From Acetofilamentum sp. (GTDB lineage Bacteria; Bacteroidota; Bacteroidia; Bacteroidales; DYOH01), in contig DYOH01000010.1 of NCBI GenBank assembly GCA_020720625.1, positions 1-64,000 on the forward strand: 64,000 nt of DNA. Reading direction: 5' to 3'. A program made the translations under genes and the position numbers. The stretch's first letter is position 1. The number at the start of each line of letters is the position of its first letter. The notes under the pieces were generated by a model. It saw only the letters and a list, made by a program, of their open reading frames with translations. It made no database searches and was not told the origin of the DNA. This document shows positions 42,184 through 54,402 of this stretch, one piece after another.

Positions 42184-43512
42184 CTAAGCTTTAACATCAT
42201 CTAAATTACTGATATCAAGGATAAAACCTTCCATGCCAATAATTTCGCTTCCTTCATAAACCGGATTTGCCGACAAAATATGCTTACCAAGGCTGCCATC
42301 AGAACAACGTCGGCGAGCTACCTCGGAGGTAATAGTAGCACCATTTTTAAGTACATTGTTGAAAATCTCGTTTAATCTCCCAAGATTTTTTTCGTCGCGA
42401 GTAACAGAGAAGTGCTTTCCAATAATGCTTTCTTTGTCTTTACATTTATACATAGCAAGCCAAGCATCATTAACTTCCACAATGTAACCATTTTTGTCGA
42501 TTCTATAGTATCCTGCATTGCTGTTTCTTACGATATTGTCCATTTGAGGTTGCAATGCACCCACATCCGGTAAATCGATAATAAATCCTTCTACGCCAGT
42601 AATAACATCCCCTTCTAAAGTAGGATTCATAGAAAGCACATGTTTTCCGAAAGAACCGTCGTGACATTTGCGCATAACCGGTTTTCCAATTACAGTTTCG
42701 CCTGCTAAAACGCGATTAAATGTATCTTCAAGGTCTTTCAGATCTTTTGCGTCTCTTGTTATAGCAAAGTGTTTTCCTAAAACTTCATCAGAACTTGCAT
42801 ATTTATGCATTCTTAACCAAGCTTTGTTTACATCCATAAAAATGCCACTTTTATTAACCCGGTAATATCCTGCAATACTCTTATCAACAGCTTTTTGCAT
42901 GTGTTTTTTATGTTCTTCTTTTGGGTCTACATGCAGTTCTTCCCATCCTGTAATCATGGCTACAATGCTTTCCGTTGCATTGTGGTTTGTTGATAACAAA
43001 TATAAGTGAGCGATTAGGAATGCAATTAGAACAAATGCTCCCAATGTATGTAATACAGGAATAATGCTACTTCCCTTTAGCATTGGAAATAAACCAGGAA
43101 ACATGTATAATATTCCTGAAAAAACCATTAGCGGGATAATAAGCGCCTTAAATCCAAAGTAAGTTAAACGTTGTAAAGGATTGAATTTGTTGTAGGATGT
43201 TTTTTTGGTAGGGTGTGGTGCACCGCGGAAAATTCCTGTTATGTAATATTCAATCTGCTCCTTCACAAGCTTAGACGATGGCACATATTGTTTCCATTCT
43301 CCAACAGCTAAATGCCAGAAAATAGCGAATACAATAAGTATTAATAGCATCCATGCAGAAATATCGTGCAGATTTACTGCATTTTCGTAACCCATTAAAT
43401 TATAAGAGGCATGAATCTCGAATCCGGTAACTGCAAGAAACATAATCAGCAGAGCTTGTGTCCAGTGCCAGAATCGCTCAAAACCTTTATATATATATGT
43501 TCGTTTTTTCAT
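42184..43512 (-). CDS. Membrane cytochrome b (b561/hydrogenase-type) fused to two tandem PAS domains
   Basis: N-terminal ~195 aa: ~4 TM helices with candidate haem-ligand His (FERFWHWTQALLIMFLAVTGFEIHA, NLHDISAWMLL, LHTLGAFVLIAFLIAHLYLL); then two homologous PAS-like units (SIAGYYRVNKSGIFMDVNKAWLRM... and SNAGYYRIDKNGYIVEVNDAWLAM...). Confidence 0.88.
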   Translation of the reverse strand: MKKRTYIYKGFERFWHWTQALLIMFLAVTGFEIHASYNLMGYENAVNLHDISAWMLLILIVFAIFWHLAVGEWKQYVPSSKLVKEQIEYYITGIFRGAPHPTKKTSYNKFNPLQRLTYFGFKALIIPLMVFSGILYMFPGLFPMLKGSSIIPVLHTLGAFVLIAFLIAHLYLLSTNHNATESIVAMITGWEELHVDPKEEHKKHMQKAVDKSIAGYYRVNKSGIFMDVNKAWLRMHKYASSDEVLGKHFAITRDAKDLKDLEDTFNRVLAGETVIGKPVMRKCHDGSFGKHVLSMNPTLEGDVITGVEGFIIDLPDVGALQPQMDNIVRNSNAGYYRIDKNGYIVEVNDAWLAMYKCKDKESIIGKHFSVTRDEKNLGRLNEIFNNVLKNGATITSEVARRRCSDGSLGKHILSANPVYEGSEIIGMEGFILDISNLDDVKA

Positions 43513-43557: not shown

Positions 43558-45192
43558 TTAATCAACATCGCAAGCAATACAATCCTTTTTGATGTATCTG
43601 ATTGTTCCGTGAATAATTACACCCATAATAGCAATGGCAATCATGGCAATACCAAAAATGTCGAAAAGCATACTTCTATCGCGTCCGGGCATGTAAAATC
43701 CGGCTACATTTTTCAATCGGCCTTCTCTGGAGTGGCAATCGGTGCATGTAAGTGCTTTATCGGATGTTGATACCATGTGGTTTAAAGGCCAATACATCTC
43801 AGTTGCAATAAACGAATATTTTCCGCTAAATGGTAAGCCAGCTATTCTCATACCGTGTGCAGCAGCTTTAACCCAATCTAAATTTTCTTGATAAGCAGCA
43901 CTATCATGTCCGTAGATATGGGGTACTATCAATATCATGTTCTCCGGATCAAAAGGTTGTTTTCCGCGATGCACTTTCATCGGAATAATTTTCGATGTAG
44001 GATCATCATAGCTGCCGTATAATTTATTGATTTGAAATATTCCGGATGTATCCTGTATCTTATCGCCATATACATAATTATAAGCATTTCCATTAAACCA
44101 TGCATATTCTGGTTCTACATTGGTGGCCCATACAAATCTACCTTTGGGGGTATTATAAGTAATAAATCCGAGGCTGTCTTTTTCTGTGATTCTTTTACCT
44201 GTTTCGGTTAATTTACCACTTTCCGACCAATCCCAAACCATTTTTGTTGGCACACCTTTGGCATAGACTGGTATATGGCAAGTTTGGCATGCAATGCGCT
44301 CAGTATGCGTATTTAAAGTAGCGTTTTGGTGAGGAGTTTCGGTATGGCATTGAGTACAATATAAACGATTTTCGTTACTGTTCGAAACACTATGTGCTTT
44401 ACCAAGCATAACATGTCTTTCTGTTTTATGGCAACTAACGCAGTTCATTTTGTTTCCGTTTTCATCCATGTGTACATCCATATCTTTATTAGCGTGGAAT
44501 AGATCGCTCGACAAATCACCATGTTTTACATTGTCGCCGCCGCCGCCAAAGAAGTGGCATTTTCCGCAGTTGTTAATCTCGGGTGAACCCACATTCTGTG
44601 CGATATAGTTATAATTTGGAGGAAAATATGTTTTTCCTTCAAAATTTTCTTTTTTTGTAACCGGATATCCTGAACCCAATGGCTGTTTTTCATAAGTACC
44701 TGTATTATCGTGGCAGGCCATGCAGTCTATTTTTGTAGAATCGCTAAAATCGTAATTTTTGTCTTTGTATCCATATCCTGTGTGGCAACTTGTACATTTC
44801 CATGAGTTTGTATTTGTAGCAATACAATAATTGTTGATAATGTTTCTTTTTCCGATTCTGGTTTTTTCACCATTTTCTCTTACAACTTCCCTGTCCCAGC
44901 GCCAGTGATTGCCAGCCATTACCTCTTTATGTCGTTCGTTATGGCAAGTTAAGCATGCTGCTGTAACCTCTTCGGGGGTATTAAATACTTGCTTCAAAAT
45001 TTCAAATTGACTATGATCTACCTGCTTTGGCAGAGTATCTGCCTTATAGCTCACAATTTTGATATCGTGAGTAGAAAAATTATTCTTATCAATATTGTTT
45101 TTGATAGCAAAAATGATAATCCAAGGGCTGATAATCAGTATAGCTGAAAATATAAACCTCATGAATTTTGTATTTTTTCTGTTATCTTGCAT
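43558..45192 (-). CDS. Octaheme c-type cytochrome, tetrathionate reductase (OTR) family
   Basis: Eight CxxCH motifs counted (CLTCH, CTSCH, CMACH, CGKCH, CVSCH, CTQCH, CQTCH, CTDCH); NNCGKCHFFGGGGDNVKHGDL is typical of OTR; N- and C-terminal TM helices. Confidence 0.9.
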   Translation of the reverse strand: MQDNRKNTKFMRFIFSAILIISPWIIIFAIKNNIDKNNFSTHDIKIVSYKADTLPKQVDHSQFEILKQVFNTPEEVTAACLTCHNERHKEVMAGNHWRWDREVVRENGEKTRIGKRNIINNYCIATNTNSWKCTSCHTGYGYKDKNYDFSDSTKIDCMACHDNTGTYEKQPLGSGYPVTKKENFEGKTYFPPNYNYIAQNVGSPEINNCGKCHFFGGGGDNVKHGDLSSDLFHANKDMDVHMDENGNKMNCVSCHKTERHVMLGKAHSVSNSNENRLYCTQCHTETPHQNATLNTHTERIACQTCHIPVYAKGVPTKMVWDWSESGKLTETGKRITEKDSLGFITYNTPKGRFVWATNVEPEYAWFNGNAYNYVYGDKIQDTSGIFQINKLYGSYDDPTSKIIPMKVHRGKQPFDPENMILIVPHIYGHDSAAYQENLDWVKAAAHGMRIAGLPFSGKYSFIATEMYWPLNHMVSTSDKALTCTDCHSREGRLKNVAGFYMPGRDRSMLFDIFGIAMIAIAIMGVIIHGTIRYIKKDCIACDVD

Positions 45193-45285: not shown

Positions 45286-46335
45286 TTAGCAACCACCAGC
45301 TTTTACTTCGCCTTCTTCGACGTAAACCGATGTTTCAAATTTGAAATTGTTTATTTCTGATTTTTTGAAGGCATGGCCAATTTCTTCGTTCTCTTGCATT
45401 ACGTTGTGCATAAATCCATTAGCACCATATTTTAGCGATTTTGCATCATATCCGAGCATTCTTAAATAGGGTACTACAAAAGCGCTGTGTTGTCCGGTAA
45501 AGCAATATACTACAATGGTTTTGTCTGTAGGTAATGTAAGTAATTCTGTATTTAATCCCAAAGAAGCTTTGGGGGTATATTGCACTGAGCCTCCTAAATG
45601 ACCTAAATTGTATAGTGCAGCAGGCCAGTAATTTACTATGTAATAACCGCCCGGATTGGCTATAATTTCGTCGATATCAATAGAGCCTTTGGCAAAACCT
45701 TCGTTCATAATTAAGGCTGCTCTTTCGTTTAGAATATCGGTTGCACTTTGTTTAATTGTAGAAAAATCAGGCAATTTGGTTTTCTCATTTTTAGGAGTAG
45801 CGCTTGTCGATAATTTATCTTCAAGTTTGTTGGTCGAATTTTTTACCCAACGGTCGCTAAATTTTGCATTCCACGAGCACATTCCGTATTTTAAGGCATA
45901 CACATTATCATAACCCATCATTTGTAAAATTGATGCAGCGTAGCTGGCTGTTTGTCCTGTATAACAGGCTATTACAACTTTCTGAAAAGTTTGTCCTTGC
46001 AAGGATTTCATGTAATCAATCAATTCGTTCATCTTGATATTTACTGCGCCTGGTACATGTCCTTCCGAAAAGGCTTTTCCATCTCTGATATCAATTACGT
46101 GAATATTTCCGGCTGGTTCTTTGTTTACATCGGCTGCCGAAATAAGTGTTGGAACCTTGGCATTGTTTATTAAATCGCCGTTGGCTACAATTTTCTCTAA
46201 AAGTAATTCAGCGTTGGCTTTTTTTACTTCAACAACTTCTTCTTTTTTTTCATCTGATTTTGCTCCAGAATTGCATTTTGTGAATACTAATGTAAATGAA
46301 AATGCGAGTACTAATAATAAAACTGATTTTTTCAT
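45286..46335 (-). CDS. Double-rhodanese lipoprotein with C-terminal GGC
   Basis: Lipobox LVFTKC; two rhodanese active-site loops VVIACYTGQTAS and IVVYCFTGQHSA; ends ...EEGEVKAGGC-stop. Confidence 0.88.
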   Translation of the reverse strand: MKKSVLLLVLAFSFTLVFTKCNSGAKSDEKKEEVVEVKKANAELLLEKIVANGDLINNAKVPTLISAADVNKEPAGNIHVIDIRDGKAFSEGHVPGAVNIKMNELIDYMKSLQGQTFQKVVIACYTGQTASYAASILQMMGYDNVYALKYGMCSWNAKFSDRWVKNSTNKLEDKLSTSATPKNEKTKLPDFSTIKQSATDILNERAALIMNEGFAKGSIDIDEIIANPGGYYIVNYWPAALYNLGHLGGSVQYTPKASLGLNTELLTLPTDKTIVVYCFTGQHSAFVVPYLRMLGYDAKSLKYGANGFMHNVMQENEEIGHAFKKSEINNFKFETSVYVEEGEVKAGGC

Positions 46336-46440
46336 AAGATTGTATTTTAAAAACTTTTATTTCGTTTGAATTCTTATTTAGAATTGGTGTAAAATTCGGC
46401 CTATTCTGGGAATTTTTGGATGCTGTGTAACTTTTTTTTT

Positions 46441-46456
46441 TGTGACATTGCGCACA
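46441..46456. promoter_or_regulatory. Candidate Crp/Fnr-family binding site
   Basis: TGTGAcattgcGCACA, one mismatch from TGTGA-N6-TCACA, located in the divergent intergenic region about 106 bp upstream of the 46335 start. Confidence 0.3.
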
Positions 46457-46908
46457 TAGTATTGTGCTGTAAAATTGTTGGGATTTATCTGTTGTGTCTA
46501 ACCTAAAGTATTTAAATATAATAATTTAATAGTATTTATGATGGATATGTTATGTAAAAAGTGCTTACTAAATTGGAGTCTTCATACAAAAAATATTTGA
46601 TATAAAAAAATTTTGAGTTTAATTAAAAATAATTTAGAACATAATAAGGTATACATCGAAAATTTGATGTGCAGAATTTGATTCTCAGATATTTTTATTC
46701 TGCATTACTCTCTTGATTTATAGCGCAAAAGCCTGACTAAAGAAAATATGCATAAAATAATATGTTCTTTGGCATGCAAGCTTATTTGTATTCTTTCTAA
46801 ATTACTGTAACTTTCATTCAAATAGTACTTTATATTTTTATTTAGAATGATTAAGAATAAGAAATCCGAATATGTGTTTTATACAATATTTATTCATATA
46901 GCAATATT

Positions 46909-46916
46909 TACCTTTG
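46909..46916 (+). promoter_or_regulatory. Candidate Bacteroidota -7 promoter element
   Basis: TACCTTTG matches TAnnTTTG about 55 bp upstream of 46971; no clear -33 TTG seen. Confidence 0.35.
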
Positions 46917-46970
46917 TGTTTCGTGCAATAGCATGAGGAATTTAATGAATAATACTAAGCATATATTTGA

Positions 46971-49208
46971 ATGAAAACAACTAGGCGACAATTCATCAAA
47001 ATTTCAGGTTTAGGAGCTGGAAGTCTGGCACTTGCAACTCCAACCTTTAATCTTTTGAGTGGTAAGCAAAAACCTCAGGATGATATTAAGTCTAAAAGGT
47101 ATCCCAATTATTGTGAGATATGCTTTTGGAACTGTGCAGGCTGGGTGTATACCAACGAAGAAGGAAAAATCTGGAAAATTATCGGTCATGATGATGACCC
47201 AAATTCAAACGGACGTTTTTGTCCTCGCGGAACTGGCGGTGTTGGTTCTTACTACGACGATGATCGTTTAAAGACGCCACTAATTCGATATACAAAAGAG
47301 GATGGTAGTCAGGATTACAGAGAAGCGACTTGGGATGAAGCGCTTGATTTGATCGCCACAAAAGTGAGCGAAATAAAGAACAAGTATGGTGCAGAAAGCA
47401 TTGCCTTGTTTAATCATGGTTCTGCCGGTAAGCATTTTACTCATTTGTTTAGAGCAATGGGATCTTCTAATATCGCTGCGCCTGCCAATGCTCAGTGTAA
47501 AACTCCCCGCGAAAATGCTTTTAAACTGACATTTGGCCACGAATTGCATTCACCAGAACCTTTGGATATACAAAATGCAGATTGCATGGTGCTGATAGGT
47601 TCACATTTAGGCGAGAACATGCATAATGGTCAGGTACAGGAGATGTCGATGCTAATAGAGAGGGGGGGAACCATTATTACCGTGGATCCGAGATATTCTG
47701 TAGTAGCCAGTAAATCAAAGATTTGGTTACCAATTAAACCTTCTACTGATATTGCTTTGTTGTTAGCCTGGATAAATGTGATTATTAACGAAAACCGATA
47801 CGATAAAGAATACATTGAGAAACATGCTCATGGATTCAATGAACTTAAAGAGTACATTCAACCATTTACACCGGAGTGGGCTTCTTTAATTACAACCCTA
47901 GATCCTACCCAAATTGTTTTAGCGGCCCGCGAAATGGCAGCAGCAGCCCCGGCTGTTATTGTTCATCCTGGTCGACATGTTACATGGTATGGTGATGATA
48001 CCCAAAGATTAAGGGCTGTAGCTATTTTAAATGCTCTTTTAGGCAGTTGGGGGCGAAAAGGTGGATTTTTCTTTTCTTCATCGGCCAGCGTCGGAAAACA
48101 TCCGGCCTATAAAGTGCCATATCCCAAACCAAAATGGAGCTGGATGGATATTCGTCCGGGCGATTTTCCTTTGGCAAATACAGGCATTACCAATGTTTTA
48201 GTCGATGGTTCGCATCCTGATTATACAGGTGAAAACAAAATTAAGGCCTGGTTTGTTGTAGGTTCTAACCTGCCAGTTTCTATACCCAACAAACAAAGAA
48301 CTTTAGAGGCAATGGATAACATGGAGTTTATCGTAGTTGTGGATACTATGCCTATGGAAATTACAAGTTATGCCGATGTGGTTCTTCCAGAAGCTACTTA
48401 CCTGGAAAGATACGATATTTTAAGGCTTGCAGAGAATCGATACCCCACAGTTGCGCTCAGGATGCCTGCTGCGGAGCCCAGATGGGAGTCTAAACCAGGA
48501 TGGTGGATGGCAAAACAATTGGGCGATCGTATGGGCCTAAATCAATACTTTGCATTCGAAAGCTACGAAGAAGTGCTCGAGGCTGAACTTAGCAAGCTTG
48601 GAGTTACTTTGGAGCAAATGAAAGAAATTGGGGTTTTGAAACTAGAACGACCTTATGATGATGCATATATGCATGAAGGTGATGAGATTGAATTTGAAAC
48701 ACCAACAGGTAAAATTGAACTACTTTCTACTGAATTGGCCGCTTTAGGTTTTGACCCGTTTCCTAAATACACAGCTCACGCCGAACCTCCGGCAGGTTAT
48801 TATTATCTGAATTATGGCAGGGTGCCAATGCATACTTTTAGTCGTACAAGTAATAACCCAAATCTTAGTGATTTGAAAAAAGAACACGATGTTTGGATAA
48901 ATCCTATTGTGGCAAATGATTGGGGGATAAAAAACGGACAATATATTTGGCTGCAAAATCAAGCCGGCGTAATATCCGATTTTCCGGTAAAAGTAAGAGT
49001 AACCGAAAGAATTCGTTGGGATTCTGTTTTTCTTCCACACGGTTTCGGACATAACAATCCAAAGCTTTCCCGTGCGCATGGAAAAGGTGTGTCTGATACT
49101 CAATTAATCAGTAATGTAATGCACGATCCGATAAATGGAAGTACAGGAATGCGCTTAAATTTTGTAACATTTTTAACAGAAGACCCAAGAAAGGAGACTG
49201 AAGCATGA
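46971..49208 (+). CDS. Molybdopterin oxidoreductase, polysulfide/thiosulfate reductase catalytic subunit (PsrA/PhsA-like)
   Basis: Tat signal TTRRQFIKISGLGAG; N-terminal 4Fe-4S CEICFWNCAGWVY...GRFCPRG; NAQCKTPRENA; PTGKIELLSTELA; followed by ferredoxin and NrfD-type subunits. Confidence 0.92.
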   Translation: MKTTRRQFIKISGLGAGSLALATPTFNLLSGKQKPQDDIKSKRYPNYCEICFWNCAGWVYTNEEGKIWKIIGHDDDPNSNGRFCPRGTGGVGSYYDDDRLKTPLIRYTKEDGSQDYREATWDEALDLIATKVSEIKNKYGAESIALFNHGSAGKHFTHLFRAMGSSNIAAPANAQCKTPRENAFKLTFGHELHSPEPLDIQNADCMVLIGSHLGENMHNGQVQEMSMLIERGGTIITVDPRYSVVASKSKIWLPIKPSTDIALLLAWINVIINENRYDKEYIEKHAHGFNELKEYIQPFTPEWASLITTLDPTQIVLAAREMAAAAPAVIVHPGRHVTWYGDDTQRLRAVAILNALLGSWGRKGGFFFSSSASVGKHPAYKVPYPKPKWSWMDIRPGDFPLANTGITNVLVDGSHPDYTGENKIKAWFVVGSNLPVSIPNKQRTLEAMDNMEFIVVVDTMPMEITSYADVVLPEATYLERYDILRLAENRYPTVALRMPAAEPRWESKPGWWMAKQLGDRMGLNQYFAFESYEEVLEAELSKLGVTLEQMKEIGVLKLERPYDDAYMHEGDEIEFETPTGKIELLSTELAALGFDPFPKYTAHAEPPAGYYYLNYGRVPMHTFSRTSNNPNLSDLKKEHDVWINPIVANDWGIKNGQYIWLQNQAGVISDFPVKVRVTERIRWDSVFLPHGFGHNNPKLSRAHGKGVSDTQLISNVMHDPINGSTGMRLNFVTFLTEDPRKETEA

Positions 49209-49738
49209 GATACGGAATGGTAATAGATACCATCAAATGTGTTGGATGCACCGATTGTGTGGTGGCATGCCAAACAGAAAATAACGTACCACTTGGATAC
49301 GCCCGTGATTGGGTAGTAGAGGCTGTAGTAGGTACTTATCCCGAATTGCATTTGGAAATTAGAACAGAGAGATGTAATCACTGTATTGATACACCATGCG
49401 TTAGAACTTGCCCAACTGGTGCAAGCCACATTATTGAAGGTGGCATAGTAAAAGTAACTGCTAACGAATGTATTGGATGCGGGGCTTGCATTGAATCTTG
49501 TCCTTACGACGCACGTTATGTGCATCCGAATGGTTATGTAGATAAATGTACTTTCTGCGATCATCGGGTGGCAAATGGGCAGGATCCTGCATGTGTTTCT
49601 GTTTGTCCTACTTATTGTATGCATTTTGGCGATTTGGACGATCCTAATAGCGAAGTTTCTAAACTATTAGCAACCAGAAACAGTAAAGTATTGGCTCCTG
49701 AAGCCGGAACAAAGCCTCAAATATTTTATCTAATTTAA
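49205..49738 (+). CDS. 4Fe-4S ferredoxin-type electron transfer subunit (PsrB/PhsB-like)
   Basis: Four Cys clusters: CVGCTDCVVACQ, CNHCIDTPCVRTCP, CIGCGACIESCP, CTFCDHRV...PACVSVCP; 4-bp overlap with upstream gene. Confidence 0.95.
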   Translation: MRYGMVIDTIKCVGCTDCVVACQTENNVPLGYARDWVVEAVVGTYPELHLEIRTERCNHCIDTPCVRTCPTGASHIIEGGIVKVTANECIGCGACIESCPYDARYVHPNGYVDKCTFCDHRVANGQDPACVSVCPTYCMHFGDLDDPNSEVSKLLATRNSKVLAPEAGTKPQIFYLI

Positions 49739-49756
49739 TTTATTCTGTTTAATATT

Positions 49757-50770
49757 ATGGAAGAAATAATTGTAAGTGGCAGATCTATACCTCATGTTGA
49801 TCCGATTTTGGATATCTGGGGGCTGCCGATTTCCTTGTATTTATTTTTAGGAGGACTGGCTGCCGGCATTACTATTTTTGCTGCTGTGGTTACTATCTTG
49901 AAGAAAGATGAACAATATTCCACCGCTGCTAAGATTGCTCCGATTATTACTCCTATTGCATTGGCCGTTGGTTTATTATTTTTACTAGTCGACTTGCATC
50001 ATATATTATATGCTTGGCAATTGTTTACTACTATTCGCCTAGACTCTCCAATGTCGTGGGGGGCTTGGACATTGCTCATTATTACGCCATTATCTATTAT
50101 CTGGGTAGCTATGCACATGAAAAGCATTATGCCAATGCTTAATATGGGAGGATGCTGTTTGGGTGTGCTGGGTTTTTTTATTGTTGAGAAAAATGATGGT
50201 AGTCAGGTAAATTGGGAATGGAGATATCCGTTTTTAATTAATTTCGAGAAGTTTGTTATTGCTCAAAAACAAGTTTTTGCATGGATTATGCTAGTACTTG
50301 GATTAGTGGTAGGGGTATATACTGGTATATTGTTATCAGCTTTTAATGCCAGACCTCTTTGGAATACAGCAATCTTAGGCCCATTGTTCCTTACTTCCGG
50401 ATTGTCAACCGGAGCTGCTGCCATTATGTGGCTTTCAAGCGATCATCACGAGGTAAAACTTTTTAGTAAAATCGATTTATTCCTGATTTTAATTGAGTTA
50501 TTTCTTATCGTGCACATGATAATGGGCTTTAGAGCAGGTTCAGAAATTCAGATTTATGCAGCTACTTTTTTCCTTGGTGGAGACTTTACTGTTATTTTCT
50601 GGGTATTCTTTGTTGGTCTTGGATTACTAATCCCATTAGTTTTAGAGTCAATGGAGCTTGTAGGTAAAAAAGTACCGGTAGCTATTGTGGCATTTCTTAT
50701 TCTTTCGGGAGGTTTATTATTCCGAATTATTATGGTTGATGCCGGACAGGTAATTAGATTTTTATACTAA
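49757..50770 (+). CDS. NrfD/PsrC-type membrane anchor subunit
   Basis: 337 aa, multiple TM helices, SLYLFLGGLAAGITIFA...SPMSWGAWTLL typical of NrfD/PsrC. Confidence 0.92.
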   Translation: MEEIIVSGRSIPHVDPILDIWGLPISLYLFLGGLAAGITIFAAVVTILKKDEQYSTAAKIAPIITPIALAVGLLFLLVDLHHILYAWQLFTTIRLDSPMSWGAWTLLIITPLSIIWVAMHMKSIMPMLNMGGCCLGVLGFFIVEKNDGSQVNWEWRYPFLINFEKFVIAQKQVFAWIMLVLGLVVGVYTGILLSAFNARPLWNTAILGPLFLTSGLSTGAAAIMWLSSDHHEVKLFSKIDLFLILIELFLIVHMIMGFRAGSEIQIYAATFFLGGDFTVIFWVFFVGLGLLIPLVLESMELVGKKVPVAIVAFLILSGGLLFRIIMVDAGQVIRFLY

Positions 50771-50785
50771 AAAAATTCAATTAGA

Positions 50786-51301
50786 ATGGAAAAAATGAAA
50801 TATATGAACCCATATCTTGCCGGATTTTTTCTTGGCTTGGTATTGCTGGCTGCCTTTTATTTTTCTGCTGAAGGATTAGGTGGTAGTGGCGCTCCCAAAA
50901 GATTGGTTGTGGGGGCTGTAGAGGCCGTTGCTCCAAATCATGCTTATAACAATGAGTTTTATAATAGTTATACTCAAAACGGTGAACGAAATCCATTATC
51001 TAACTGGGTTGTTGTTCAGGTTGTGGGCTTATTGGCCGGTGGTTTTCTTTCGGGAACTTTTAGCGGCAGATTAAAACTAGTTACTGAGCATTCTCCCAAA
51101 ATAACTGCCAAAAGAAGACTATATATGGCTTTAATTGGCGGAATATTGTTTGGAATAGGCTCTCAATTCGGACGAGGATGCACCAGCGGCGCTGCTTTAA
51201 GTGGAATGGCTGTTTTTTCGGCTGCCGGATATCTTACACTGATTGCCATTTTTGGCACGGCCTTTATTGTGGGAAAATTTGTTAAAAAATTATGGATTTA
51301 A
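50786..51301 (+). CDS. YeeE/YedE (TsuA/PmpA-like) sulfur transporter half
   Basis: GGILFGIGSQFGRGCTSGAALSGMAVFSAAGYLTLIAIFGTAFI; conserved GRGCTSG. Confidence 0.88.
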   Translation: MEKMKYMNPYLAGFFLGLVLLAAFYFSAEGLGGSGAPKRLVVGAVEAVAPNHAYNNEFYNSYTQNGERNPLSNWVVVQVVGLLAGGFLSGTFSGRLKLVTEHSPKITAKRRLYMALIGGILFGIGSQFGRGCTSGAALSGMAVFSAAGYLTLIAIFGTAFIVGKFVKKLWI

Positions 51302-51318
51302 TAGAGAGGAAATAAATT

Positions 51319-51921
51319 ATGGGACCATTAGTAAAAATGGGAGAGATAGCCGCCGGTTGGGATTTTGTAATTGCATTTATCATCGGAATATTCTTTGGTA
51401 TTGTAATGGAGCAAGCCGGATTTTCATCCAGTAAAAAAATTACCGGATGGATTTATGGATATGATTTTACAGTTATTCGCGTATTTTTCACTGCCGCCAT
51501 TGTAGCCATGATAGGACTAGTTTTTATGCAGTATTTAGGCTGGATAAATTTTGGCGAATTATTTATTAATCCAAGTTATATTTGGTCTATACTATTAGGC
51601 GGAGCCTTAATGGGTGCTGGATTTGCCATTGGTGGATTTTGTCCGGGTACAAGCATTGCGGCGGCTGCAATTGGTAAGATTGATGCCATGGTTTTTGTTT
51701 TGGGCATAATGATTGGAGTATTTATTTTTGCCGAAGGTTTCCCTATTTGGGACGATTTATATACAGCTGCTAATCATGGACCATTATTAATTACCGATTT
51801 ATTAGGTATAAGCAAAGGTGTATGGACATTTATTTTTATTCTGATTGCTTTTGCTACGTTTTGGGGAACTGCCGCACTTAGAAAAAAATACGCGCACAAA
51901 GAGTTGGATTATAATAATTAA
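51319..51921 (+). CDS. YeeE/YedE (TsuA/PmpB-like) sulfur transporter half
   Basis: FGIVMEQAGFSSSKKI..., GGALMGAGFAIGGFCPGTSIAAAAIGKIDAMVFVLGIMIGVFIF. Confidence 0.88.
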   Translation: MGPLVKMGEIAAGWDFVIAFIIGIFFGIVMEQAGFSSSKKITGWIYGYDFTVIRVFFTAAIVAMIGLVFMQYLGWINFGELFINPSYIWSILLGGALMGAGFAIGGFCPGTSIAAAAIGKIDAMVFVLGIMIGVFIFAEGFPIWDDLYTAANHGPLLITDLLGISKGVWTFIFILIAFATFWGTAALRKKYAHKELDYNN

Positions 51922-51926
51922 TAGTT

Positions 51927-52589
51927 ATGGAACATAAAAAACAATTGAGAATATATTTGCTCTTAACTGCCGTATTTATGGTATTGGCTATCATCATGTT
52001 TTTCTTGCCTGATAAACGTGTAGATAAAGAGCTTTCTCCCAGAACGCTTATCAAACTTTATAATCATGGCAATGCCTATTATTCTGTTGATAAAGTCGCC
52101 AAAATGATAATTGATGAAAATCCTGCTTTGCAATTGGTTGATGTAAGAAGCGAAGCTGAGTTTGCAGAGTTCTCACTGCCGGGTGCTATTAATATTCCCT
52201 TAGAAAAAATTCTTGAAAAGGATGAGCATAACAATTATGTTTGGAAAGAGTATCTGCGTCCGGAGAAAAAAATTACAGTTTTTTATTCTAACGGCGATTT
52301 AAAAGCTGCACAGGCATGGACATTAGCAACGCGTTTGAGAATGGATAAAGTTTTTATGCTTGAAGGTGGATTAAATAATTGGTTTGATAAAATTATGACT
52401 CCCGAGGCCCCAAAGGCAACTACTGCTACACCCGAAGAATATGCAGCTTATGAATTTCGCAAGATGGCCAAAACATTTTTTGGCAGAGCTAATGCCGGAC
52501 AGGCTGCTTCTATTACTGCGGAAGAAAATGCAAATTCGGCACCGGTGGTTAAGAAGAAAAAGGTTGTGTCGGAAGGCGGAGGTTGTTAA
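51927..52589 (+). CDS. Membrane-anchored rhodanese-like protein lacking the catalytic Cys, C-terminal GGC
   Basis: N-terminal TM anchor; rhodanese signature LQLVDVRSEAEFAEFSLPGAINIPLEKI; loop TVFYSNGDLKAAQAW has Ser at the Cys position; tail VVKKKKVVSEGGGC-stop. Confidence 0.88.
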   Translation: MEHKKQLRIYLLLTAVFMVLAIIMFFLPDKRVDKELSPRTLIKLYNHGNAYYSVDKVAKMIIDENPALQLVDVRSEAEFAEFSLPGAINIPLEKILEKDEHNNYVWKEYLRPEKKITVFYSNGDLKAAQAWTLATRLRMDKVFMLEGGLNNWFDKIMTPEAPKATTATPEEYAAYEFRKMAKTFFGRANAGQAASITAEENANSAPVVKKKKVVSEGGGC

Positions 52590-52597
52590 ACCATAAA

Positions 52598-53263
52598 ATG
52601 GATTTTAAAATGGAAGAAAGAAAAGATTATGGACCAGTTACAATTGGTCATTTAGTTGGAGTAATCATATTCTCACTTATATTACTTATTGGCTTAGTGG
52701 CGTATAATTCAAAATCGCCCAGATATGTACTTAGCCCCGATGAATCGTTGGCTCACATAAGTGCAGAAGCCAAACAACTTGACGCTCCTATGATGGCAGA
52801 GGTTGTAATTTCTAATGATTCTCTTTACAGGATTATAGATTTGCGTTCTCCAAGATTATTTATGAATAAACATATTCCCGGTTCTGTGAACATTCCAATG
52901 GGAAGATTATTCGATAAAGAGTTTGAATCGATTTTTAATCAGCACGAAAGAATCAATATCTTGATTGGCGGCACATCTGCTGAGTCAGCCATAGCTTATA
53001 TGATGCTTAACGACGAGGGCTTTAAAAATATACGATTGGTTTCTTTTGGAGTAGATTTTGTTCTGACTAATATCATTGCAAAATTTGCGCCGCTTAACGG
53101 AAAATACGACGAGGAAAGAAGCATTTATAATTACGCCAAAATCGTGAATGAAACTCCCGGATTTTCTATAGATGCAACTGCTGCACCTGCTTCTGTTGAA
53201 GAGACTTCTGCACCTGTGAAGAAGAAGAAAAGTTCTGGGAATCAAGAATCCGGTGGATGCTAA
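52598..53263 (+). CDS. Membrane-anchored rhodanese-like protein lacking the catalytic Cys, C-terminal GGC
   Basis: N-terminal TM anchor; YRIIDLRSPRLFMNKHIPGSVNIPMGRL; loop INILIGGTSAESA has no Cys; tail VKKKKSSGNQESGGC-stop. ATG at 52598 chosen over TTG at 52583. Confidence 0.85.
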   Translation: MDFKMEERKDYGPVTIGHLVGVIIFSLILLIGLVAYNSKSPRYVLSPDESLAHISAEAKQLDAPMMAEVVISNDSLYRIIDLRSPRLFMNKHIPGSVNIPMGRLFDKEFESIFNQHERINILIGGTSAESAIAYMMLNDEGFKNIRLVSFGVDFVLTNIIAKFAPLNGKYDEERSIYNYAKIVNETPGFSIDATAAPASVEETSAPVKKKKSSGNQESGGC

Positions 53264-53280
53264 ATTCAAAAATTTAAAAA

Positions 53281-54402
53281 ATGAGAAAATTTAATTTTAT
53301 ATTAATTGTATTAATTGCGGGAGTATTTTCATTTTTCGCCTGCAATAATCAGGCTGCTCAGGAAGAAATTGTCGTTGGTCAGACAAATCTTGCCAATGAA
53401 TCGGAGGCTCTTGTTAATTTTCTTGAAAAATCCGGTGATTATATTAACTCAGCCGAATCGCCTTCATTGATTGACGCAAATGATGTGTCTGAAAATGGAA
53501 AAAAATATTTGGTGCTGGATATCCGCATAAACGAAGATTATGTGGCCGGACATATCGATGGTGCGATTAACACTCCTGCGAACGAGGTGCTTCAATATCT
53601 GGAGCTAACTGAGAGTGCGGCTGCTTATGAAAAAGTAGTTATTGCTTGTTATTCTGGTCAGAATGCTAGCTATATTACTTCAGTACTAAGAATGTTGGGA
53701 TACGGAAATGTATATGCCTTGAAATTTGGCATGAGTAGCTGGAATAAAGCCACGGCTTCGCATTGGCTGGAAAATATTTCCAACAAATTTGTAGCCCAAC
53801 TTGAGCAAAATGGAAATCCGAAAAATGCTAAATCGGCTTTGCCTCAGCTGAATACAGAGAGCGCCAATGCTTATGATGTGTTGTATAAGCAGGCATTTAA
53901 AGTGCTCGATGAAGGATTAAATCCGGCTAAAATAAAAGCAGAGGAAGTGTTTGCTGATCCTTCTAAATATTACATTATTAATTACTGGCCATTAGAGCAA
54001 TATGCTGTTGGGCATATTCCTGGTGCTGTTCAGTATCAGCCTAAAAAAACACTTGCAACGTCGCGCGACTTAACTACTTTGCCATCGGATAAACCTATTG
54101 TGGTATATTGCTATACCGGACAAAATGCTGCTTTTGTTACTGCTTTTTTGAGAGTTTTAGGATATGATGCAAAGGTATTATTGTATGGAGCAAATTTTTT
54201 TATGAATGGAAAAATGAAATCTGATCCTATTCTTGGGAATGCTTTCTCGGTAGAGAAAATTAATAATTTTCCGTTAACGGAGGGCGAGGAGCCATCTAAA
54301 ATGGTGGTTAAGGCTGGTTTGGCTTCTCAGAAAGCTGATGAGCCAAAAGCCGGAGTGCCTGTGAAGAAGAAAAAAGAAGTGTCGGAAGCCGGTGGTTGTT
54401 AA
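53281..54402 (+). CDS. Double-rhodanese lipoprotein with C-terminal GGC
   Basis: Lipobox FSFFAC; two active-site loops VVIACYSGQNAS and IVVYCYTGQNAA; tail VKKKKEVSEAGGC-stop. Confidence 0.9.
   Translation: MRKFNFILIVLIAGVFSFFACNNQAAQEEIVVGQTNLANESEALVNFLEKSGDYINSAESPSLIDANDVSENGKKYLVLDIRINEDYVAGHIDGAINTPANEVLQYLELTESAAAYEKVVIACYSGQNASYITSVLRMLGYGNVYALKFGMSSWNKATASHWLENISNKFVAQLEQNGNPKNAKSALPQLNTESANAYDVLYKQAFKVLDEGLNPAKIKAEEVFADPSKYYIINYWPLEQYAVGHIPGAVQYQPKKTLATSRDLTTLPSDKPIVVYCYTGQNAAFVTAFLRVLGYDAKVLLYGANFFMNGKMKSDPILGNAFSVEKINNFPLTEGEEPSKMVVKAGLASQKADEPKAGVPVKKKKEVSEAGGC

Follow-up and report, generated by a model that had tools for sequence, protein, structure and literature searches.

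The window analysed here is the whole of a stretch of 64,000 nucleotides from Acetofilamentum sp. (contig DYOH01000010.1, positions 1 to 64,000), in which two operons encode four proteins of the rhodanese fold, P1 to P4, each closing in Gly-Gly-Cys directly before the stop codon (GGC-stop). The minus-strand operon runs from P1 through an octaheme tetrathionate reductase-family cytochrome c (OTR) to a cytochrome b561 that carries two PAS domains, and the plus-strand operon consists of a PhsA/PsrA-like reductase, an iron–sulfur (FeS) subunit, an NrfD-type subunit, the two halves of a YeeE-type sulfur transporter (YeeE_a and YeeE_b), P2, P3, and P4. The features are listed below, with TM standing for transmembrane.

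42184..43512 (−): cytochrome b561 (thiosulfate reductase cytochrome b-like) fused to two PAS domains, with a PF01292 match, two PAS matches, and an NF011582 match below cut-off
43558..45192 (−): OTR, membrane-anchored and periplasmic, which matches the octaheme tetrathionate reductase family (TIGR04315; 583 bits, above the cut-off of 375)
45286..46335 (−): P1, a tandem rhodanese and probable lipoprotein with both active-site cysteines (ACYTGQ, YCFTGQ), ending EVKAGGC-stop
46971..49208 (+): PhsA/PsrA-type molybdopterin reductase (PF00384) with a Tat-like signal (MKTTRRQFIK)
49205..49738 (+): PhsB/PsrB-type FeS subunit with a four-cluster Cys pattern, a constant neighbour across loci
49757..50770 (+): NrfD/PsrC-type membrane subunit (PF03916)
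50786..51301 (+): YeeE_a, the C-terminal half of a YeeE/YedE sulfur transporter (PmpA-like; PF04143 profile positions 175–309), with invariant Cys132
51319..51921 (+): YeeE_b, the N-terminal half (PmpB-like; PF04143 profile positions 5–157)
51927..52589 (+): P2, a TM-anchored single rhodanese without an active-site Cys, whose sole Cys is at the tip, ending VVKKKKVVSEGGGC-stop
52530..52589 (+): the C-terminal arm of P2, a Lys-rich linker predicted to be disordered, followed by GGC
52598..53263 (+): P3, a TM-anchored single rhodanese with no Cys except the tip, ending VKKKKSSGNQESGGC-stop
53281..54402 (+): P4, a tandem rhodanese lipoprotein with both active-site cysteines (ACYSGQ, YCYTGQ), ending VKKKKEVSEAGGC-stop

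A preliminary description of this DNA had claimed that four rhodanese-fold proteins end exactly in Gly-Gly-Cys-stop, and the claim is borne out. A scan of the window for open reading frames (ORFs) of at least 60 residues that close in GGC-stop returns exactly four, with stops at 45286 (−) and at 52589, 53263, and 54402 (+); the DNA at the four ends reads gct ggt ggt tgc taa, ggc gga ggt tgt taa, tcc ggt gga tgc taa, and gcc ggt ggt tgt taa; and the Pfam Rhodanese profile PF00581 scores above its cut-off in all of P1, P2, P3, and P4. Because the Gly-Gly-Cys codons differ among the four genes, the tails are not copies of one another at the DNA level. An N-terminal TM helix or lipobox, from which an extracytoplasmic position of all four tails had been predicted, is present in each, although the lipobox of P1 (..FTKC) is atypical, with Lys at position −1.

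Throughout the 3.8 Mb genome, the pattern GGNGGNTGYTRR occurs 13 times, and a check for ORFs of at least 30 residues places five of these occurrences at an in-frame ORF end. All five ORFs encode exported rhodaneses, four of them in the window and one at C28:49202, so the four copies reported for one locus are all present and the genome carries a fifth outside the window. The genome encodes about 10 rhodanese-domain proteins, five of which account for all of its GGC-ended ORFs. The fifth copy, a tandem rhodanese (L029:9203–10267, minus strand, contig C28), is surrounded by MutS-like, TatD-like, asparaginase, and mechanosensitive channel genes, and its relatives in L069 and L070 are also GGC-ended, with no sulfur neighbour seen. 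Two genomes from the same order that lack a close P4 homologue served as controls, and none of the 20 matches inspected in them, out of 22, is a GGC-ended ORF longer than 60 residues. Across loci L064–L183, GGC followed by zero to two residues closes 153 of 189 rhodanese ORFs versus none of 1268 other ORFs; the exception in L172 comes from a stretch of N in the assembly, and in L179 the first copy has GGCS and the second ends in GGH. The GGC-stop tail on the four rhodaneses is far beyond chance.

Related loci were sampled with YeeE_a as the query, blind to the tail (80 loci), by which a selection bias toward tailed relatives was avoided as a cause of the pattern, and the sample was extended by additional loci of relatives, by a Bacteroidota-wide profile search, and by searches in two further phyla, Myxococcota and Acidobacteriota. 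Members of the locus are found in Bacteroidota (including Ignavibacteria), Marinimicrobia, Acidobacteriota (including Holophagaceae), and Myxococcota, in three layouts: PhsA–FeS–NrfD–YeeE_a–YeeE_b–rhodanese(s); OTR–cytochrome b–YeeE_a–YeeE_b::rhodanese fusion; and P1-type rhodanese–OTR–cytochrome b. A variant order, PhsA–FeS–YeeE_a–YeeE_b::rhodanese(GGGCG)–NrfD, is seen at L277:658–6179, in a genome that the Myxococcota search supplied. The strict set comprises the 127 distinct rhodaneses encoded directly after YeeE_b or fused to it, and in 126 of them the C-terminus is Gly-Cys followed by zero to two residues (80 GGC, 16 EGC, 15 GGCS, one GGCGG, and others). All 40 loci matched by the Bacteroidota profile end in Gly-Cys plus zero or one residue, and in Myxococcota and Acidobacteriota the YeeE_b-linked rhodanese is tailed in 17 of 18 loci (two of the 18 repeat L148 and L176), the eighteenth having a separate tailed rhodanese within the same gene cluster. 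GGC thus stands as the motif in most relatives, whereas distant members end in EGC, DGC, or MGC, and therefore the constant element is the Gly-Cys tip, the first Gly being dispensable. The linker before the tip is usually Lys-rich. The partners of YeeE_b-linked tailed rhodaneses are always a PhsA or OTR reductase module and the YeeE halves, and relatives that keep the locus without the terminal Cys occur only among the accessory tandem rhodaneses, in which the tail is found in 23 of 37 near sulfur genes versus 4 of 16 elsewhere (Fisher p = 0.018).

Another rhodanese cluster, without tails, is composed of a tandem rhodanese, a porin-like protein, and a second rhodanese and lies at L030:8012–10919, with counterparts in L095, L096, L099, and L170. 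The version of this cluster in related genomes includes a rhodanese of 160–190 residues ending in GGCGG or GGC, which makes the cluster a possible fourth context of the arm.

P2 and P3 each consist of one TM helix and one rhodanese domain, and contain one Cys, the last residue. In the AlphaFold2 model of P2, the TM helix is followed by a rhodanese domain with a predicted local distance difference test score (pLDDT) mostly above 90, a long helix, and a tail; after residue 199 the pLDDT falls to 58–65 without secondary structure, and residues 200–220 are modelled as unstructured. A YeeE_b fusion is predicted similarly, with the rhodanese domain mostly at 80–91 and the tail at 33–44. A Foldseek search with the P2 model returns rhodanese structures, such as 3gk5 (TMt 0.83). 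The Cys of the active-site loop is absent from P2 and P3, and each of the two domains in P1 and in P4 has it; among 138 GGC-tailed domains, single or fused, 130 are without it, and in the profile alignment to 6mxv the column of the catalytic Cys is aligned with Ser. P2/P3-type proteins form a family of about 30% identity, and in those aligned here, 18–41% identical to P2, invariance is limited to Asp72, Arg74, Trp131, Gly218, Gly219, and Cys220. Of the 126 tailed proteins in the strict set, 95 have no Cys in the rhodanese part other than the one at the tip. Judged by sequence, P2 and P3 have the rhodanese fold but are probably catalytically dead as rhodaneses.

The tails of one locus resemble each other closely. 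Over the ten positions that precede GGC, identity is 45% among paralogues of one locus versus 19% between loci, and the observed value is reached in none of 2000 permutations, as exemplified by L162 (VIRKKKKRVAGGC and IIRKKKKRVAGGC) and by L092, in which three tails read VPVKKKQVGGGCE. Identical tail residues of paralogues use the same codon in 339 cases and a different one in 306, so recent gene conversion is not supported as the cause of the matching tails. Matching peptides despite differing codons therefore point to selection on the peptide, as would be expected for a shared docking partner. Where one genome contains both locus types (three cases), a block of three to four Lys residues is found in the PhsA-type tail and not in the OTR-type tail.

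The partner genes are those of sulfur-compound reduction and transport. The best NCBIfam match of the PhsA homologue is NF012032, with a score of 459 bits that lies under the equivalog cut-off of 694, and therefore thiosulfate, polysulfide, and arm-bound sulfur are all candidate substrates. The OTR gene recurs as a neighbour in L072, L076, L080, L091, L093, L104, and many other loci, and P1 orthologues with GGC adjoin it in L076, L077, L091, and L093. The two PAS domains on the cytochrome b561 at 42184–43512 resemble each other, and in L076, L091, and L093 the related proteins also have the length that such a fusion requires, while the cytochrome b of YeeE-type OTR loci is mostly about 220 residues long, without PAS. 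The transporter at 50786–51921 (+) is encoded by two genes in swapped order, C-terminal half first, as in PmpA/PmpB. YeeE_a aligns to StYeeE (8k1r) 239–327; YeeE_b is fused to the tailed rhodanese in OTR loci elsewhere. Each half has a Sulf_transp domain with a conserved Cys (C132 in YeeE_a, and C107, in L127 numbering, in YeeE_b fusions), and the Cys91/Cys293-type residues are retained. The assignment as C- and N-terminal halves agrees with the published description of PmpA and PmpB (PMC11582611).

Taken from sequence comparison, the tails are fairly likely to be extracytoplasmic sulfur carriers in the form of flexible, swinging thiol arms. The preliminary description had proposed a swinging persulfide carrier arm, and this proposal gains comparative support from the tip Cys in 126 of 127 strict-set proteins, the lost loop Cys, the disorder of the tail in the models, and the constant company of PhsA or OTR and YeeE.

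Several known systems share parts of this arrangement. DsrC, named earlier as the parallel for the arm, turns out not to be the nearest one: DsrC/TusE proteins are cytoplasmic and move sulfur between proteins on a two-Cys C-terminal arm, so that the likeness lies in the C-terminal Cys arm and the differences in fold, location, and the number of arm cysteines; moreover, no window protein matches the DsrC/TusE family in Pfam or NCBIfam. Sud, the polysulfide-sulfur transferase of Wolinella succinogenes (1qxn), is a periplasmic single rhodanese that serves a Psr-type reductase through its active-site Cys. It is likewise a rhodanese encoded with a Psr-type reductase, PhsA–FeS–NrfD lying directly upstream here, and weak profile matches to 1qxn are obtained with P2/P3 (E 6e-4) and with the fusion (E 1.1e-5); in contrast to Sud, P2 and P3 lack the active-site Cys, have a Cys at the C-terminus instead, and are TM-anchored. 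YeeE/TsuA, SoxT, and PmpAB correspond to YeeE_a and YeeE_b as C- and N-terminal halves with conserved Cys, but here the two halves have a gene each, the C-half first, and are linked with a tailed periplasmic rhodanese or fused to one. PhsABC/PsrABC and OTR are the reductase modules of the two locus types, yet in the open-access literature searched, carrier-arm rhodaneses are absent from the described systems.

The closest functional parallel is SoxY. The Cys of its C-terminal GGCGG binds sulfur intermediates (PMC6067878), and the arm that bears it swings with a sulfane conjugate attached (PMC5336275). In lucinid symbionts, otr has a divergent soxY as its neighbour (PMC11237559); the pmpAB genes of Hyphomicrobium are close to one for a SoxYZ fusion, and SoxYZ has been proposed as the sulfur donor of the YeeE-like SoxT (PMC11582611 for both). 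Like SoxY, the tailed rhodaneses would be periplasmic carriers with a Gly-flanked Cys on a C-terminal arm that is predicted to be flexible, in a setting among sulfur enzymes; the observations that bear on a SoxY-like arm are the Gly-Cys ends with zero to two further residues, the exact GGCGG ending in acidobacterial L148/L267 and in the small rhodaneses of L095, and the predicted disorder. The tailed rhodaneses differ in their rhodanese fold, Lys-rich linker, and membrane tether, no SoxZ is seen in the loci, and they go with quinol-linked reductases, not with SoxAXBCD. The SoxY fold (PF13501) is not matched in P1–P4; P2 and P3 match Rhodanese only, and P1 and P4 have weak extra matches besides. 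By this analogy, P2 and P3 would in our reading work like SoxY without being SoxY.

For the loading of sulfur, the direction of its flow, and docking into the reductase or YeeE, we infer the following scheme. P2, P3, and the YeeE_b::rhodanese fusions would be membrane-tethered carriers whose rhodanese scaffold no longer has its catalytic Cys, and their working thiol would be the terminal Cys on a disordered, mostly basic linker of about 20 residues. P1 and P4, as tandem rhodaneses with intact active sites, would take sulfane sulfur from thiosulfate, polysulfide, or tetrathionate and load the arms, the tip Cys holding the sulfur as a persulfide or S-thiosulfonate. The loaded arm could then reach the split YeeE (PmpA/PmpB-like) transporter, and also the periplasmic active site of the quinol-coupled reductase, of the PhsABC/Psr type or octaheme OTR with cytochrome b, which would turn the arm-bound sulfur into sulfide and regenerate the thiol.

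The tip Cys might alternatively serve the YeeE halves only, as the periplasmic loading arm of a transporter of thiosulfate or zero-valent sulfur, with the reductase genes being merely co-operonic. This agrees with the position of the tailed rhodanese, always immediately after YeeE_b or fused to it, with the Cys91/Cys293-type residues kept in both halves, and with the proposed role of SoxT, itself a YeeE protein, as recipient of SoxYZ sulfur (PMC11582611). However, the reductase module (PhsABC or OTR–cytochrome b) is equally constant, the tailed P1 is encoded with OTR–cytochrome b without YeeE (L076, L077, L091, L093, and the window), and the charge of the tail tracks the type of reductase. TusA is the usual cytoplasmic partner of YeeE, and no member of the TusA family (PF01206) was found in the genome with a search whose positive controls matched, which is unusual for a genome with a YeeE pair and argues mildly against a main function in importing sulfur for a TusA partner. 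Service to YeeE alone is unlikely. A redox-sensing role, in which mixed disulfides of the tip Cys link P2, P3, and P4 for complex assembly or polysulfide sensing, would fit the several tailed paralogues with matching tails in one operon, the PAS domains in the locus, and the SoxY–SoxY disulfides reported in vitro (PMC5336275); many loci encode just one tailed protein, though, and therefore disulfides between paralogues are not the general function, so that we consider this role improbable.

An anchoring or sorting tag, whose C-terminal Cys would be lipidated or joined to another envelope component, had been offered as an alternative from the outset, and a short conserved C-terminal motif behind a linker on exported proteins does have that appearance. 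It is disfavoured, and we give it little credence, since each protein is already anchored (N-terminal TM helix in P2/P3, lipobox in P1/P4, multiple membrane passes in the fusions) and none of the 1268 non-rhodanese ORFs of the loci has the motif. GlyGly-CTERM and MYXO-CTERM signals place a TM helix and a basic cluster after the motif, whereas here the Cys is the last or nearly last residue, with no TM or basic segment behind it. Ligation of Mo, heme iron, or Cu in a partner, or the scavenging of metal, is conceivable for a lone accessible thiolate that could reach a redox centre on a basic linker, the partners being metalloenzymes, but family alignments show a single Cys with no conserved His or second Cys close by, and the same tail is paired with two unrelated reductases (Mo and octaheme); a metal or heme site is very improbable on these grounds. 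In QbsE-type carriers, trimming exposes Gly-Gly for thiocarboxylate formation, and Gly-Gly does precede the last residue in most members here. Trimming of the Cys from a ubiquitin-like carrier is nevertheless an extremely remote prospect: whole lineages have Glu, Asp, or Met in place of the first Gly yet keep the Cys, and the proteins have a rhodanese rather than a beta-grasp fold and are periplasmic, where there is no ATP. As a general mechanism, a Gly-Gly carrier of the ThiS/MoaD/Urm1 type is ruled out by the EGC, DGC, and MGC members together with the rhodanese fold.

Several observations weigh against the sulfur-carrying arm as the preferred explanation. The tailed copy on contig C28 of the same genome has no adjoining sulfur genes, so that dedication of the arm to a sulfur respiration locus, as claimed earlier, is upheld by the constant partners PhsA or OTR and YeeE but not by this copy. 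L089, the sole exception in the strict set, has a tail-less fusion, although the next gene encodes a tailed rhodanese, and L271 has a tail-less fusion plus a separate tailed rhodanese. The tail is optional on tandem rhodaneses, being absent from 14 of the 37 near sulfur genes, P4 orthologues included, and 8 of 138 tailed domains retain the loop Cys. Disorder predicted by AlphaFold is no proof that the tail moves, and the similarity of tails within a locus may partly stem from duplication history.

Swinging sulfur-carrier arms are already known from SoxY; no prior description of the rhodanese-borne Gly-Cys version, which is conserved over several phyla, was found in the same open-access literature. 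If the carrier function is correct, these proteins would place a second, unrelated scaffold beside the sulfur-carrying swinging arms of SoxY, DsrC, and LbpA, would give a role to a rhodanese subfamily devoid of the catalytic Cys, and would provide one carrier that connects Mo-dependent and octaheme reductases with YeeE/PmpAB transporters. A rhodanese encoded after YeeE_b and ending in Gly-Cys-stop would serve as a search signature for this metabolism. We further advance, more tentatively and with doubts that outweigh our confidence, that the true substrate of Phs/Psr-type and octaheme reductases may be sulfur held covalently on the Gly-Cys arm of a dedicated pseudo-rhodanese, not free thiosulfate, polysulfide, or tetrathionate, in what might be a respiration of protein-bound sulfur and an independently evolved reductive counterpart of the Sox carrier system across several phyla. 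Protein-bound sulfur may accordingly be what OTR, and many proteins annotated as PhsA/PsrA in metagenomes, reduce in vivo.

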